Assembly (NCBI GenBank): GCA_944324455.1
Contig: CALUWJ010000004.1
Location: forward strand, 62,001 to 126,000
Direction: 5' to 3'
Length of the DNA: 64,000 nucleotides
Origin: Candidatus Gastranaerophilales bacterium
GTDB lineage: Bacteria; Cyanobacteriota; Vampirovibrionia; Gastranaerophilales; Gastranaerophilaceae
Part shown: positions 46,017 through 63,061 of the stretch, piece by piece
Layout: each line of letters starts with the position of its first letter
Position numbering within the stretch: position 1 is the stretch's first letter
Translations under genes and position numbers: made by a program
The notes under the pieces: generated by a model
What the model saw: the letters and a program-made list of their open reading frames with translations, nothing else
Told to the model about the DNA's origin: nothing
Database searches by the model: none

Positions 46017-46274
46017 TTACGCAATAGCGTTAAGAGTTTTTCTTTCTACATTTAAACCTTTTTCAATGCTTGCTTGTCTTTGCATGAATGTTTCGTAGAA
46101 TATTGGAGATTGTTTAATTGTTCCTAAGAAATCTGTTAAAAAGCTTCCTTCGTGTTTAACATCTGTTGTGTTGTTTATAACATTCGCACCATAGTTAGAA
46201 CGAACACCTGCTTTAAAACGTATATTATTATTAATTGTATTTTGTACATTTTTTATTTTGCTTACTGTTAACAT
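46017..46274 (-). CDS. Small protein with an N-terminal IRFKA motif
   Basis: An 85-residue protein of unknown function. After an Asn-rich lead, residues 16-24 read NNIRFKAGV, resembling DNIKISFKGA in the protein at 3505. The rest is soluble and polar without Cys. Good GAGGTGAG ribosome site and a strong promoter (46343-46371), so it is likely well expressed. Single gene with its own terminator. Confidence 0.65.
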   Translation of the reverse strand: MLTVSKIKNVQNTINNNIRFKAGVRSNYGANVINNTTDVKHEGSFLTDFLGTIKQSPIFYETFMQRQASIEKGLNVERKTLNAIA

Positions 46275-55678: not shown

Positions 55679-55701
55679 AACAAAATAATTATATTTATGA
55701 T

Positions 55702-55734
55702 AAAATCTTGGTATTATTTATGCCAAGATTTTTT
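55702..55734 (+). terminator. Intrinsic terminator between the HD-GYP-like and ATP-grasp genes
   Basis: AAAATCTTGG (55702-55711) pairs with CCAAGATTTT (55723-55732) and is followed by T residues. It ends just before the ribosome site of the next gene. Confidence 0.82.
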
Positions 55735-55750
55735 AAATAGAGGAATAAAA

Positions 55751-56893
55751 ATGATTATTTTAAATAAACCCTACGTATCTGATTTTTTAATTGAAACAAT
55801 AAAAAAGAATGGTTTTAGTGTATTAGATAATGAAATTGCAAGAAAATATTTTAATAGCGAAAATTTATTATCAGATGAAAAAGCAGTTGAGGTTTCTAAA
55901 AATGAGCCGATTTATTCAAATTCTGAAAATTCGATTGATTGGGTTGTAGAGAATTTAAAAAATTCAGATATTTCAAAAATGATTAAAATAAGCAAAGATA
56001 AGGTTTTATTCAGAGAATCATTAAGAAAAATCTACCCTGATTATTATTTTAGAAAAGTTACATTAGATGAAATTAAAAATATAAAAATTAATGAATTAAA
56101 ATTTCCTTTTGTTTTAAAACCAAGTGTAGGCTTTTTGAGTTTTGGGGTTTATCCTGTTAAAAACGAATTTGAATGGAAAAATGTGGTTGAAAAAATAAAT
56201 AAAGACATTGAAAAACTAGCAGGTTTTTTCCCAAAAAGCGTTGTAGATATGTCTGATTTTATTATTGAAGAAATGATAGATGGAGAAGAATATGCGCTTG
56301 ATGCTTATTATGATAAAAATGGTGAAGCTGTTATATTAAATATTTTTCATCATCCGTTTTTTGATGATAAAGATGTATCTGATAGGGCTTATTATACTTC
56401 TAAAAAGATTATTGAAACATATCATGATAAATTAAAAGTTTTGTTAGATGAAATCGGCAAAGAAATCGGATATAAGAATTTTCCGTTTCATATTGAATTA
56501 AGAATAAATGAAGATAAAATTATTCCGATTGAAGTTAACCCAATGCGTTTTTGCGGATGGTGCATAACTGATATTGCTCAAAATGCTTGGAATATAAATG
56601 TTTATGAATATTTTTTAAAACAATTAAAACCAAACTGGCATGAAATATTAAAAAATTCAACCGATGATTATTTTTATTTCACAATGGGTGATATTCCATC
56701 TTCGATGGATAAAAAAATGATTAAATCAGTTAATTATGAGAAATATTTAAAAAATATTTCAAATCCTTTAGTGATAAGAAAAATTGATTATAAAAATAAT
56801 CCTGTTTTTGCGATTGTTTTTGCAAAAACTTCATCAATTGATGAGATAAAAAATATTCTAAAATTAGATATGAAAGAGTTTATTGAGCTTTAA
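55751..56893 (+). CDS. ATP-grasp ligase-like protein of unknown substrate
   Basis: A 380-residue protein with an ATP-grasp fold. The Lys site lies in FPFVLKPSVGFLSFGVYPV (about 118-136), the metal residues in FHIELRINED and IPIEVNPMRFCGW (around 255-280), and IIEEMIDGEEYALDAYY between. The family joins a carboxylate to an amine or thiol using ATP; the substrate is not evident. An AGAGGAATA ribosome site supports ATG 55751; the in-frame ATG at 55697 lies in the terminator and is rejected. It converges with the ribonucleotide reductase-like gene, overlapping by 14 bases. Confidence 0.8.
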   Translation: MIILNKPYVSDFLIETIKKNGFSVLDNEIARKYFNSENLLSDEKAVEVSKNEPIYSNSENSIDWVVENLKNSDISKMIKISKDKVLFRESLRKIYPDYYFRKVTLDEIKNIKINELKFPFVLKPSVGFLSFGVYPVKNEFEWKNVVEKINKDIEKLAGFFPKSVVDMSDFIIEEMIDGEEYALDAYYDKNGEAVILNIFHHPFFDDKDVSDRAYYTSKKIIETYHDKLKVLLDEIGKEIGYKNFPFHIELRINEDKIIPIEVNPMRFCGWCITDIAQNAWNINVYEYFLKQLKPNWHEILKNSTDDYFYFTMGDIPSSMDKKMIKSVNYEKYLKNISNPLVIRKIDYKNNPVFAIVFAKTSSIDEIKNILKLDMKEFIEL

Positions 56894-58175
56894 AAACACT
56901 AATACCCTTAATTCCTTTTTGTTTAGAATATCTTATAATTTGATTGATGTCATTAATATTGCTTTCAGGTGCCAAATTTATCGTTTTTGAAATTTGTCCG
57001 TCAGTATATTTTTGTGCAGTTGCTAAAGTGTCGATTTCATTATAATAATTAAGCGATTTATTTTTATGTGGTTCAATTGATGGAGTTGTTTTTAATAGTC
57101 TTGAAATTGTTCCTGTGGGCGAAATTGCGGTTTTTAAACCGTTTGAATTTACTTCTTTTTTAATAATTTTAAGACAATTTTCTAAAATTTCATTTGCATT
57201 TTTTTCTCCATAATTATATCCAAGATAATCAAGAAGTTTTTGATAGCCTAAAACTCCTATAAAACCGTCAGACGCAATATTTTTAAAACCTTTAGATAAT
57301 AAATTTGCGCTATATTTTAAAAGCTTATAATTTATAGTATTGGTTTTTTTATCATAAAATTTAGATAAATTAATCTGTGCTAATTTTAGACCTTGGTTCT
57401 CTTTTAATTCTGCTGCAGCACAGCAATCACAAAGATAATTTTCATTGTTTGAAAAAATTATGGCAGGTTCACCTGATTTTAGCATTGAAGATAAAAGATT
57501 ATTATAAATTGTTTTTGCATTTACTTTAGAACCGTTTTTTAAGATTAAATCTTTATTATTATCAACTTTAGTTAAAAAATCATCATTTATTATAACCGAT
57601 AAATCAAAGCACCAGTTTTTGTAGTCTTTATTATCTTTTAAATGAATAAAATCAAGAATTTTGGGATGATTTATCGGCAACAATCCTATTAATGCAGGAG
57701 GACGAGAAAGCGAGCTTTCTCTAAATTTAAAATATTTATTTATCTTTTTAATTTCATCAGTTGGGTTTTGAAAATCTTTAAAATTAATCCCGATTCCAAA
57801 ACCGTTTTTAATTGAATTTTCTAATAAAACACAATGTGATAGAGTTGTTTTTTTTGGGTTTAATTTTATTGCAACTGCGCTTTTTGGGTCATTAAGATTT
57901 GAATAAGCATTGCTTGATAGGCTAACATAGCCTCCTTTTAAAAGGGTGGAAAAATTTTTTTTATCATTAGAATTTGAAAAAAGTTTATTTGAAATATTAT
58001 CAAAAAAATCATTGATATTTTGATTTTGGTTTATGATTTTTCTTTGAATTAAAACTTTTTTATCTATATTTGGATTTTCAAAAGCACAAAAATCATTCCT
58101 ATAAGCTGGATTTATCTTGGGAATGTAGTTATATTTTATTGATTTAATTGGCTGAGTTGGCAATATTTGAAGCAT
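56880..58175 (-). CDS. Short class II ribonucleotide reductase-like protein lacking the NPCGE motif
   Basis: A 431-residue homologue of B12-dependent (NrdJ-type) ribonucleotide reductase. Matching landmarks are SHCVLLENSIKNGFG (113-127, with the first redox-type Cys115), RPPALIGLLPINHPKILDFI (158-177), INLSKFYD (268-275), SPTGTISRLLKTTPSIEPH (352-370), KYTDGQISKTINL (389-401) and the end GIKGISVF. The region that should hold the catalytic NPCGE reads LCDCCAAAEL (248-257), with no match to the Asn-Pro-Cys-Gly-Glu set. No N-terminal ATP cone or C-terminal Cys tail. Reduction of nucleotides seems unlikely. It starts 1 base after scpB, last in the smc series. Confidence 0.75.
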   Translation of the reverse strand: MLQILPTQPIKSIKYNYIPKINPAYRNDFCAFENPNIDKKVLIQRKIINQNQNINDFFDNISNKLFSNSNDKKNFSTLLKGGYVSLSSNAYSNLNDPKSAVAIKLNPKKTTLSHCVLLENSIKNGFGIGINFKDFQNPTDEIKKINKYFKFRESSLSRPPALIGLLPINHPKILDFIHLKDNKDYKNWCFDLSVIINDDFLTKVDNNKDLILKNGSKVNAKTIYNNLLSSMLKSGEPAIIFSNNENYLCDCCAAAELKENQGLKLAQINLSKFYDKKTNTINYKLLKYSANLLSKGFKNIASDGFIGVLGYQKLLDYLGYNYGEKNANEILENCLKIIKKEVNSNGLKTAISPTGTISRLLKTTPSIEPHKNKSLNYYNEIDTLATAQKYTDGQISKTINLAPESNINDINQIIRYSKQKGIKGISVFKAQ

Positions 58176-58176
58176 T

Positions 58177-58689
58177 TTATAGATTTTTTAGGTCTTGAGT
58201 AGCGTCAAGCTTTTTAACAAGAGCTTTGATATCTCCTTTTAGTTTAAAATATTCTTGGAATTTTTTTGTCGTTCTAATATTAAAACTTCTTCCGTTTTTA
58301 TCTTTTGTTCTTGAAATTAGCCCTTGTTCTAATAATTCTGCAATATGTTCATAAGCACTTGGGCGAATTTCTTTTAAATAAGATTGTCTTATAGGTTCTT
58401 TTAGCGCAATTACCGTTAAAGTTTTTAAAACTGCGGGTTTTAATTCAACAGGACATAATTTTTCAACTATATCCATGTGTTCTGCTTTAACTTGGATAAT
58501 ATATCCGTCTTCATCATCAATTTCCAGTGCACCGTTTCTGGAAGAATAATCAAACATTAAATCCAAAAGCGCACTTTCAACTTGTTCAACATCAATATCT
58601 ATAATCTGAGCAATTTCATCAGGGTGCATTGCTCTTGATGTTATAAATAAAACAGCTTCTATTTTTGATTTTAATACTTCAGGTTCCAT
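58177..58689 (-). CDS. scpB: Condensin subunit ScpB
   Basis: A 170-residue winged-helix protein, partner of ScpA and SMC in chromosome segregation. Hallmarks are SKIEAVLFITSRAMHPDEIAQI near the N-terminus, LKTLTVIALKEPIRQSYLKEIRP in the middle, and LLEQGLISRTKDKNGRSFNIRTT (GLI...GR.. block). Two bases after scpA. Confidence 0.93.
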   Translation of the reverse strand: MEPEVLKSKIEAVLFITSRAMHPDEIAQIIDIDVEQVESALLDLMFDYSSRNGALEIDDEDGYIIQVKAEHMDIVEKLCPVELKPAVLKTLTVIALKEPIRQSYLKEIRPSAYEHIAELLEQGLISRTKDKNGRSFNIRTTKKFQEYFKLKGDIKALVKKLDATQDLKNL

Positions 58690-58691
58690 TT

Positions 58692-59564
58692 TTAATTTTC
58701 TTTCTTGGTTTTATTTTGTTCTTTTTTTACGAACAATTTTCCATAAAATTCATCTTGATAAAGTTCACATTCTTCTTCACGAGCCAAGAACAATAATGCA
58801 ATAAAAGCTGAACTTCTATCAAATCCTAAAAGGCAAAGCTCTCTTAATTCAATATTTTCTTCTCTTTGAAAAATCTGCACAAGATTTTGGCGCATTTTTT
58901 CAACAACTTGTTCAACATATTCTTCATGGGCTAATTCTTTAATATCAGAAGCTTTTAAATTAGCATAGTTTCGAACGCGCCTTTCTTTTCTATCCAGCGC
59001 AGATTTAATTGCATATTTTTTTTCTAATTCTTCATAAAATTGAATATGGCGGATTAAATCTTTTAAGGTTACCGTTCTTTTTCTATTTAATCTTACTGAT
59101 GTTCTTCTTTGTAAAACCTCATCAAATGAAACAACATTGTTTGTCGGTATTTGCATTTGTTCATAATCAAGTTCATCATTGAAATCATCTTCAAAATAAT
59201 CTTCAGGTTCCATTTCAAAATCATTAATGGAAATTCCTTGCAAGATATCGGATTTAATTTTTAAAAGAGTGGATGAAAATAAAATAGCTTTTCCGACAAA
59301 ACGAAGATTGTCTTGTTTTAATTCAGAAATTCGCTTCATGTATTTATCATACAAATCAACAATATCAATGTTCCAAGGGTCAATTTTGCCCATTTTAACT
59401 AAATCAAGGATGATTTCAATGGCGTCTGTTTGAACATTTTTTTTAATACCGGTATTTGAAATAAACTCAATATTATCACCAAAATCAACTGTGCCATCAA
59501 GCACTTTGATTTCATCATACATATTTTTATTATTACCGTAAAACTCGCTAACTGCTTCAGACAT
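58692..59564 (-). CDS. scpA: Condensin kleisin ScpA
   Basis: A 290-residue kleisin linking the SMC heads. The N-terminal part has LDLVKMGKIDPWNIDIVDLYDKYM, which binds the SMC neck. An acidic linker follows (about 117-134), and the C-terminal winged helix has AFIALLFLAREEECELYQDEFYGKLFV. Its ATG overlaps the stop of smc in TAATG, implying coupled translation. Confidence 0.94.
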   Translation of the reverse strand: MSEAVSEFYGNNKNMYDEIKVLDGTVDFGDNIEFISNTGIKKNVQTDAIEIILDLVKMGKIDPWNIDIVDLYDKYMKRISELKQDNLRFVGKAILFSSTLLKIKSDILQGISINDFEMEPEDYFEDDFNDELDYEQMQIPTNNVVSFDEVLQRRTSVRLNRKRTVTLKDLIRHIQFYEELEKKYAIKSALDRKERRVRNYANLKASDIKELAHEEYVEQVVEKMRQNLVQIFQREENIELRELCLLGFDRSSAFIALLFLAREEECELYQDEFYGKLFVKKEQNKTKKEN

Positions 59565-62500
59565 TATTCATCCTTTATTTTAATTCCTGAGATTTTTGTA
59601 ACCCCTTTGTCTTTTTGAGTTACACCAATCATTCTGTCTGCATTATCAAGCATCGGTTTTCTAAGTGAAACAACGATAAATTGAGCAGTTTTAGATTGAT
59701 TGGTGATGATTTGAGCCAATTTTTCAACATTTGGTCCATCAAGGTGCATATCAACTTCATCAAATGCATAAAATGGTGCGGGCAGATATTTTTGAATTGC
59801 AAACACAAAAGCAAGCGCTGTTAGAGATTTTTCCCCGCCTGACATACCGGCAAGTTTTTGGTTTCTTTTATCTCTTATGTTTGCAACAAAAGTTAAACCG
59901 CCCATAAACGGATCTTCTTCATTTTCTAATGATAGAGAACCTGAGCCTTGAGAAATTTGTTCAAAAACTTCTTTGAAATTGTTGTTTATTGCATGATAAG
60001 CTTCAAGGAAAGTTTCTTTTTTTAGCCCTTGATAGCCATTCATCCTTGTTTTGATTTCATTTTTTTCATTGTTTAGAGTTTCAACTTTTTCTTTATAAGA
60101 ATTTTGACGTTCTAAAACTGCGTCATATTCTGTTAGAGCTCTCATGTTAACAGGTTCTAATTCTTCCATTTTCTTTTGCAGTTTAGAAATTTTAGAATTG
60201 ATTTCATCAAGAGAAATTTCTGTTTGCTCAAGCTCTTTTGGATTAATTCCGATTTCATTAAATTCTTTTAAAATATTTTCTAAAATCGGCTCTAATTCGC
60301 GTCTTCTTGCTTTATAGCTTTCTTCTTGTTCTAATAATCTTTCGATATCATCTTGAATTTTATTTTTAGAGGTTTTAGAGTTCAATAATTCTTCTTGTAG
60401 TTCATCTCTTTTTTGTTGTAATTCAACAAGGTTTTTACCCAGTTCAAGAATTTCTTTTTCAAGCTTTTCAAGAACTTCTTTTAGAGATGAAATTTCTTTT
60501 TCAAATTGTTCTTTTTCGGTTTTTAGATTTTCATTATCACTTGTTAATTTTTTAATATCATTTTCACGAGTTGAAATTTGACTTTGTTGGAATTTGATTT
60601 GGTTTTTATCTTTTTCAATGTCATTTTCCTTTGTCATTATTGCTTTTTCAAGGTCTTTTATATCTTGTTCAACTCCTGTTGTTTTTTCTTTTAATTTTTT
60701 TAATTCACCCTCATCAATTAATTTTTCAACAGCTTCAAGTTCTTCTTGGAGGCTTTGTGTTTGTTCATTTAATTTAATGTGTTTATTTTCAATTAAATCA
60801 AGTTCACGAGATAATTTTGTATTTTTTTCTTTTAATTCTTTTAAAAGTTTTTCGCCGTCAGAAATAATATTTGAACTTGACTCATTATTTGAAATAAGGT
60901 TTTTAAGCTCAATTTTAGCCCCATTTAGAGTATTTAGGGCGGTTGAGTGTTTTTGTCTTATGTTATCCAATCTTCTCTCTAAATCTTTTTCTTTTTGAGC
61001 TAAATCTCTTGATGATTGTTCTAAATCTTTTAGTGCTTTTTTGTATTTTTCCAGTTCTCTTTCTTGGCTTTTATCAAAAAATGAAGCATTTTTCTTTTTG
61101 GCACCACCTGTTATAAGACCGCTTTTTTCCGTTATATCGCCATCAAGGGTTACTACTCTATATTTACCTGCTAATTTTTTAGCGCAGTTTTCATCTTCTA
61201 CAACAATGGTTTCACCAAGTGCAAAATAAAATGCATCAAGATATTTATCATCAAAATCAATTAAGTTGATTGCAAAATCAATAACACCTTTTTCTTTTGG
61301 CAGTGATAATCTATTTGGTGTTTTTTTGATTATGCTTAAAGGAATAAAAGAGGCTCTATCTCTACCCAATGAACGCAAGACCTGAATTGCTTTATAAGCA
61401 ACATCTTGATTATCAACAACGATTGAATAAGCTCGAGCGCCCATTGCAACATTAATAGCGTCAATATATTCACCTTCAACATCGGCTAATTGAGCCAAAG
61501 GCTGATGAACACCCTCAATATGTGCATTTAAAACTGATTGAATGCCTGAACCTTGCCCTGCTGTTTTATAAGCATTTTTATTTGCATCCAAGATTGCTAT
61601 TCTTTTTTGTGCTTGTTGGATTTTATAGAATGAATCTTCTTTTTGTGCTTTTGTTTTATCTAATTCTTCGAAGGTTTTTGTTTGAATTATTTTGCATTCT
61701 TCAACCTCTTTAGATAGTGTTTCAATTTGAAGATTTAATTTATCTTTTTCATCTTCAAAGATTTTGGATGAATTTAAAAGTTTTTCAATTTGAGTTTTTG
61801 TTTGATTGATTTTCTCAGAATTATTTTTGTATTCACTCTCAAGAGGCAGTTGTTCTTTTATTAATTCTGTTTCTTTATCTTTTAGAGTTTCTATTTCTTT
61901 TTTTAATTTATTTCTGTTTTGGATGTGTTCATCAGCAGATTTATTTAATCCTGTCATTTCTGTGATGATTTTATTCAGTTCTTCTTTTTTTGCTTTTAGA
62001 GAAGCATTTAATTCATCAAGCTCTTTATTTTTTTCTTCAATTGCGTTTGTGTATTCTTCAATTTTTTGTTTTTGAACTTCGATACCGTTTTTATAGCCCT
62101 CGATAGATTTAAGATTATCAAGCGTTGTTTTATCACATTGAGCTATGGCAGATTTTTTGCGCTCAACTTCACCTTTTTTTTCTTCTAAAAGTTTTTTAAC
62201 TTCAAGTTGTTTTTCTTCTCCTTGAGCTTTAACTTTTGAATTTATTTCGTCATATTTTATTTTAAGGTCTTCAATTTTAGTTGTTGCTTCTTTTAGCTTT
62301 TCGTTTAATTCTTTTTTTGTTTTTGTTGCCATTAAAATATTTTGATGTACAAGCTCTAAGGAACGAACGGTATCAAAGTATTTTGCACTTTGAATTTTTG
62401 TTTCAAGCTCTGTTTTTTCGTCTTTAAATTTTTTGTATTTAAGCGCAACTTCTCTTTCTTGTTTTAATTGTTCAATTCTATTATCTATTTCATTAATTAA

Positions 62501-63061
62501 AATTGTATCGTTTGCAATTTTATCTTCAACATTTTGTATTTGTTCGCTTGCAAGAGCAATTTTTCTGTCAAAATCGGCTGTGCCTGCGATTTCGTCAATG
62601 ATTTTTCTTCTCTCAATAGCAGAACATCTTGTAATTTCTGTAACATCCCCTTGCATCATAACATTGTAGCTGTTTGGAGAAATATTATATTTTTCTAATT
62701 CTAAATGGATTTGAGTTAAACTGCAGGGTTTATCATTATAGTAATAATTAGACTGAACACCGTTTTTGCCTTTTTTAACATATCTTCTTATTGAAAATTC
62801 TTCTCCGTTTTCATTTGCAAAAACAACCTTAACGCTGGCTTCACCGCGTTTATTATGGTTAGAGATTAAATCCGCCACACCTTGTTCAGAGCGCAATGAG
62901 CGAGCTGTTCTTAAACTTAGGGCAAAAAGAATGCTATCTATAATATTGCTTTTTCCTGAACCGTTTGGACCGGAAACAGCTGTAAAACCTTGCATTAAAG
63001 GAATATTAACCTTAGATGCAAAAGATTTAAAGTTATCAATTTCGAGTTCTTTTATATACAT
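59564..63061 (-). CDS. smc: Chromosome segregation protein SMC
   Basis: A 1165-residue SMC ATPase. Walker A GPNGSGKSNI lies at 31-40. Two long coiled coils (about 165-495 and 670-1000) flank a hinge (about 500-660, with GGAKKKNASFFD at its end). The C-terminal head has the signature AGMSGGEKSLTALAF and Walker B FYAFDEVDMHLD. It compacts and separates chromosomes. First of smc-scpA-scpB. The end of lepB lies 70 bases upstream in the same direction. Confidence 0.97.
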   Translation of the reverse strand: MYIKELEIDNFKSFASKVNIPLMQGFTAVSGPNGSGKSNIIDSILFALSLRTARSLRSEQGVADLISNHNKRGEASVKVVFANENGEEFSIRRYVKKGKNGVQSNYYYNDKPCSLTQIHLELEKYNISPNSYNVMMQGDVTEITRCSAIERRKIIDEIAGTADFDRKIALASEQIQNVEDKIANDTILINEIDNRIEQLKQEREVALKYKKFKDEKTELETKIQSAKYFDTVRSLELVHQNILMATKTKKELNEKLKEATTKIEDLKIKYDEINSKVKAQGEEKQLEVKKLLEEKKGEVERKKSAIAQCDKTTLDNLKSIEGYKNGIEVQKQKIEEYTNAIEEKNKELDELNASLKAKKEELNKIITEMTGLNKSADEHIQNRNKLKKEIETLKDKETELIKEQLPLESEYKNNSEKINQTKTQIEKLLNSSKIFEDEKDKLNLQIETLSKEVEECKIIQTKTFEELDKTKAQKEDSFYKIQQAQKRIAILDANKNAYKTAGQGSGIQSVLNAHIEGVHQPLAQLADVEGEYIDAINVAMGARAYSIVVDNQDVAYKAIQVLRSLGRDRASFIPLSIIKKTPNRLSLPKEKGVIDFAINLIDFDDKYLDAFYFALGETIVVEDENCAKKLAGKYRVVTLDGDITEKSGLITGGAKKKNASFFDKSQERELEKYKKALKDLEQSSRDLAQKEKDLERRLDNIRQKHSTALNTLNGAKIELKNLISNNESSSNIISDGEKLLKELKEKNTKLSRELDLIENKHIKLNEQTQSLQEELEAVEKLIDEGELKKLKEKTTGVEQDIKDLEKAIMTKENDIEKDKNQIKFQQSQISTRENDIKKLTSDNENLKTEKEQFEKEISSLKEVLEKLEKEILELGKNLVELQQKRDELQEELLNSKTSKNKIQDDIERLLEQEESYKARRRELEPILENILKEFNEIGINPKELEQTEISLDEINSKISKLQKKMEELEPVNMRALTEYDAVLERQNSYKEKVETLNNEKNEIKTRMNGYQGLKKETFLEAYHAINNNFKEVFEQISQGSGSLSLENEEDPFMGGLTFVANIRDKRNQKLAGMSGGEKSLTALAFVFAIQKYLPAPFYAFDEVDMHLDGPNVEKLAQIITNQSKTAQFIVVSLRKPMLDNADRMIGVTQKDKGVTKISGIKIKDE

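Follow-up and report, generated by a model that had tools for sequence, protein, structure and literature searches.

Within the window, that is the whole 64,000-nucleotide stretch of DNA analysed here, smc (59564..63061), scpA (58692..59564) and scpB (58177..58689) are all encoded on the minus strand. The gene that concerns us, which we call pseudo-NrdJ (56880..58175, minus strand), belongs to the same smc-scpA-scpB group, its ATG start lying 1 base past the scpB stop. The reading frame has no internal stops and specifies a protein of 431 residues. At its far end it overlaps by 14 bases a convergent plus-strand gene (55697..56893) for an ATP-grasp protein (PF13535, ATP-grasp_4), a neighbour that is common at this place in the genus but not constant. 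The direct placement after scpB made in the original prediction is borne out, but its description of the gene as fused into the smc-scpAB operon is not: the gene is adjacent and co-directional.

The ORF matches the ribonucleotide reductase (RNR) barrel family in Pfam (PF02867, 2e-21) and NrdJ_Z in NCBIfam, where an e-value of 2e-27 goes with a score of 95.8 bits, far under the curated cut-off of 399.95. It is the sole PF02867 protein in the window's genome, which is 99.4% complete. A confident predicted model (pLDDT 89.4, pTM 0.86) contains a complete 10-stranded RNR barrel; model confidence is low in an N-terminal extension (residues 1-31; 58083..58175, minus strand), which is also poorly conserved. 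Thermotoga NrdJ had been suggested as the natural structural comparison, and T. maritima NrdJ (1XJE) is indeed the top fold match to the model in Foldseek (E 1e-20) as well as the closest relative of solved structure in a sequence-profile search (1.2e-26). Set against 18 full-length NrdJs from the same order in a profile-profile comparison, 26 orthologues give E 1e-43. The Foldseek and profile-profile results, together with conservation across the genus (see below), put the homology beyond chance, and the ORF is a homologue of the NrdJ-type (class II) RNRs.

Catalytic residues and missing segments

The original prediction was of a short RNR homologue without the NPCGE motif. The homology stands (PF02867, NrdJ_Z, Foldseek), but the motif is not gone, being rewritten and still alignable. 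Residues were mapped using the 18 full-length NrdJs of the order as reference and the 26 short orthologues as queries, and the register on T. maritima NrdJ is the same. In profile alignments with both, D250-C251-C252-A253-A254 sits exactly on N-P-C-G-E. These residues form part of the finger-loop block CDCCAAAEL (residues 249-257; 57405..57431, minus strand); across the 26 species the motif takes the form D-[C/S/P]-C-[A/G]-[A/T], and in two orthologues (L019, L023) it reads DPCGA.

The thiyl-radical Cys (C281 in sister NrdJ, C322 in T. maritima, C439 in E. coli) corresponds to C252 (57420..57422, minus strand) and is Cys in 26/26. The catalytic Asn (sister NrdJ N279) has become D250, Asp in all 26, and the catalytic Glu (E283) has become A254, with 23 Ala and three Thr among the orthologues. 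Both reducing cysteines are replaced, the first (C98) by an invariant Ala, A100 (57876..57878, minus strand; 26/26), and the second (C292) by L263 (57387..57389, minus strand), which is Leu in 23 cases and Phe in three. The Cys of LSHCVLL was considered as the first redox Cys, but was ruled out since the profile alignment places Ala100 there. Judging from the profile register and from the place of the finger loop between two strands of the model, C252 appears to be in the catalytic position. The original prediction had set repurposing against a CDCC seated in the Cys pocket with a working Glu; what is found is a Cys aligned at the catalytic position and a missing Glu.

The substrate-site phosphate-binding loop PTGTIS (353-358; 57102..57119, minus strand) is retained, with P353 and S358 invariant, and the INL and ISKT signatures are kept too. 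Of 42 aligned invariant columns, 26 carry the NrdJ consensus residue, and the pocket therefore remains under constraint. The orthologues also have fixed derived states. These are D250 and, in an invariant triplet where a barrel strand begins (W188-C189-F190; 57606..57614, minus strand), W188 and C189, the triplet being N-N-F in NrdJ.

Several segments of the full-length enzyme are missing. Loop 1, the specificity-effector loop, is some 14 residues shorter than in sister NrdJ and comprises residues 132-137 (57765..57782, minus strand). A further 60 or so residues are missing after SIEP, corresponding by alignment and model to the class II cofactor hairpin region (for the roles of loop 1 and of this region see PMC9531940 and PMC9669993). 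Full-length copies in the order carry a Cys-rich tail at their C-terminus, whereas the short orthologues finish with the last barrel strand and lack the tail in 26/26. No ATP cone is present in the 431-residue sequence. Both the ATP cone and the Cys tail are therefore missing, as originally noted, but, by sequence only, an ATP cone seems to be missing from the start of the full-length sister-genus NrdJs as well, so that loss of the tail alone counts as derived. Compared with NrdJ (TIGR02504; 1XJE; the full copies of sister genera), pseudo-NrdJ shares the complete alpha/beta barrel, the thiyl Cys, PTGTIS, INL, ISKT and the collinearity of the barrel, but is without the Asn and Glu, the reducing Cys pair, the Cys tail, loop 1 and the cofactor hairpin; it is about 230 residues shorter and is located behind scpB.

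In RNR chemistry, normal turnover requires the Glu and the two reducing cysteines. Because the Asn, the Glu, both reducing cysteines and the Cys tail are lost in 26/26 orthologues, pseudo-NrdJ is, to judge from its residues, unable to act as a normal reductase.

Distribution, selection and ancestry

Within a single Gastranaerophilales genus, 26 of the 28 genomes have the gene. Scanning a large collection of genomes produced no further members; three additional matches are ordinary RNRs at 22-23% identity. Those relatives that have names are uncultured, mostly Candidatus Gastranaerophilales, and many come from animal guts. In all 26 carriers pseudo-NrdJ lies beside scpB on the same strand, scpB lying immediately upstream and separated from it by -4 to +6 bases, and no NrdJ was seen next to scpB at any scpB locus examined in relatives outside the genus. 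The scpB-linked copies that the original prediction looked to in related genomes are thus conserved; the link to chromosome segregation that it drew from the placement after scpB holds as synteny, with near-zero spacing in 26/26, while a functional link is putative.

Two members of the genus, G016 and G027, lack the gene. At the G016 locus (L101, 4854-6589) 5 bases separate scpB from a convergent ATP-grasp gene, and pseudo-NrdJ is cleanly missing; a match in G027 (on C25) has phage-like neighbours, covers residues 14-71 only and looks like chance. Since both genomes nest within the genus in a tree of ScpA and ScpB, loss of the gene is the simplest explanation, and pseudo-NrdJ was present next to scpB in the genus ancestor. 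SMC-ScpAB is still there in both, yet the gene is not, so pseudo-NrdJ is dispensable.

Pairwise dN/dS values of 0.14-0.22 for closer pairs indicate purifying selection on pseudo-NrdJ. Across much of the genus its sequences are around 45-60% identical, against around 82-92% for ScpB, which points to weaker constraint than on the core SMC subunit.

A full NrdJ is found in none of the 28 genomes of the genus but is kept by most relatives outside it. The corrinoid adenosyltransferase CobA is likewise found in 0/28, against 27/27 searched relatives with full NrdJ. The adenosyltransferase search covered the CobA and PduO types, and PduO-type enzymes were found nowhere (0/28 in the genus). Two relatives without NrdJ (G030, G070) are also without CobA, and in one incomplete genome (G073) CobA is present and NrdJ was not found.

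Whether the genome carries another complete RNR also bore on the original prediction: NrdD with NrdG is encoded in the window's genome, but a full NrdJ is absent. NrdB or another ferritin-like beta subunit (PF00268) was not found there. NrdD occurs in 27/28 genomes of the genus, the exception being a 91% complete assembly, and deoxynucleotides in the window's genome are supplied by NrdD/NrdG. The order has two kinds of NrdD (PF13597 at about 385 versus about 680 bits), the genus having only the lower-scoring one (L004, on C6, in the window's own genome).

In a tree of short and full NrdJs the former have a long branch (2.7) and do not resolve as sisters; descent from the order's NrdJ is compatible with an AU test (p 0.575). 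We infer that the order's own NrdJ gave rise to pseudo-NrdJ once adenosylcobalamin had been lost. A phage origin was considered and rejected: the viral matches inspected are ordinary-length RNRs with NPC motifs and around 20-32% identity, and the altered block occurs in none of them.

Possible roles of the retained barrel

Pseudo-NrdJ is very probably a non-reductase maintained by selection. That it is repurposed rather than a working RNR, as first proposed, agrees with the four catalytic and redox losses in 26/26, the loss of tail and hairpin, the presence of NrdD/NrdG, the loss of CobA and the purifying selection. Since selection preserves a protein unable to carry out the RNR reaction, this apparently disarmed gene has probably acquired a new job.

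Our favoured reading, to which we give a probability of roughly 0.4, is that pseudo-NrdJ is kept by selection and has an accessory role with SMC-ScpAB. Loss of adenosylcobalamin in the lineage would have made NrdJ useless as an enzyme, freeing its barrel for other use; the class II barrel would have lost its reductase chemistry and been retained for another job; a nucleotide or a comparable phosphorylated compound may bind at the retained phosphate loop and pocket; and pseudo-NrdJ, co-made with SMC-ScpAB, may modulate or scaffold that complex. A ligand in the barrel is suggested by the constrained, ancestral-looking pocket (26/42 invariant columns matching NrdJ), a changed use by the fixation of D250, W188 and C189 as derived residues, and work with SMC-ScpAB by the unbroken link to scpB. 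A role with SMC would also fit a finding reported for B. subtilis, where an smc deletion is partly rescued by hydroxyurea, which depletes dNTPs (PMC4634966), and which makes a link between dNTPs and SMC biologically plausible. It is from synteny that a role in SMC-ScpAB control is suggested, and operon membership in a compact genome is not proof of joint function.

A more specific proposal is that an RNR-derived pseudoenzyme, made with ScpB, binds nucleotide in the old barrel and couples DNA-precursor status to SMC-ScpAB organisation. This we consider unlikely. The nucleotide-sensor role of the original prediction is possible, the phosphate loop PTGTIS being kept, but less likely now that the specificity site is known to be lost: with loop 1 deleted and no ATP cone, the protein is not expected to sense dNTPs allosterically in the usual way.

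Second in our estimate, and a serious if doubtful contender, comes selection for a function unrelated to SMC-ScpAB, such as nucleotide or phosphometabolite binding or regulation of NrdD, with adjacency to scpB serving promoter and translation only. The intact smc-scpAB of the two genus members without the gene would fit such a function, as would an evolution much faster than that of ScpB and an RNR ancestry that hints at nucleotides. It is harder to reconcile with a near-zero spacing to scpB that is unbroken in 26 species while the ATP-grasp side varies. Also improbable is a changed radical enzyme, in which a thiyl radical would still be formed on C252 and act on another substrate, with Asp and Ala standing in for Asn and Glu. 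The invariance of C252 in 26/26 and the fixed derived D250, W188 and C189 would be accounted for, but no radical source is evident, the cofactor hairpin being deleted and CobA and NrdB absent, and the protein stops before any C-terminal glycyl-radical loop.

A working minimal RNR, for example of the phage class O kind, is hardly credible. The class O enzymes of cyanophages and marine bacteria (such as that of S-CBP4) resemble pseudo-NrdJ in size (average 412 aa), in the absence of an ATP cone and in having minimal insertions, and the catalytic Cys is retained. However, class O has a reducing Cys pair, a C-terminal double Cys, a TTP-bound loop 1, a hairpin and a ferritin-like partner (PMC9531940), whereas pseudo-NrdJ has neither the C-terminal CXC/CXXC nor the active-site Cys pair. 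The loss of Asn, Glu, both reducing cysteines, Cys tail and loop 1 rules out a functional minimal or class O RNR; there is also no PF00268 beta subunit in the genome, and the class O structure 7URG is missing among the profile matches. By predicted fold pseudo-NrdJ is an RNR barrel; its defining active-site features place it outside both the working NrdJs and the class O enzymes. A pseudogene in decay or an artefact of assembly, to which the loss in G016 and G027 and the fast evolution might point, is no more credible, being ruled out by dN/dS of 0.14-0.22 and by intact frames in 26 separate assemblies, with the fixed derived residues also against it.

For an RNR homologue of this kind, the nearest precedent is viral and, as an analogy, a clear one. 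The inactive R1 of betaherpesviruses (murine cytomegalovirus M45) is likewise an RNR large subunit that no longer catalyses the reaction and has come to bind proteins instead, but it comes from an unrelated viral lineage and targets host signalling proteins (PMC12282084). In the literature that could be searched we found no described cellular protein like pseudo-NrdJ, nor any cellular RNR pseudoenzyme that selection has maintained throughout a bacterial genus. Its history is legible as loss of adenosylcobalamin, loss of catalysis and retention of the barrel, and its genetic tie to SMC-ScpAB is fixed. A possible connection between nucleotide supply and chromosome segregation could be probed with this protein. 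More practically, annotation based on PF02867 would wrongly credit the genus with a second RNR.

A minor observation concerns the N-terminus of pseudo-NrdJ (58083-58175), which resembles the M-x-I-x-P/S-like, Asn-rich starts of other proteins. Such a start followed by an Asn-rich linker is seen elsewhere in the window (46017-46274) and at two other loci (L116, 12752-13693; L124, 14036-14797). This pattern scan is suggestive only, and the N-terminus may be a shared targeting tag or the resemblance may be due to chance.
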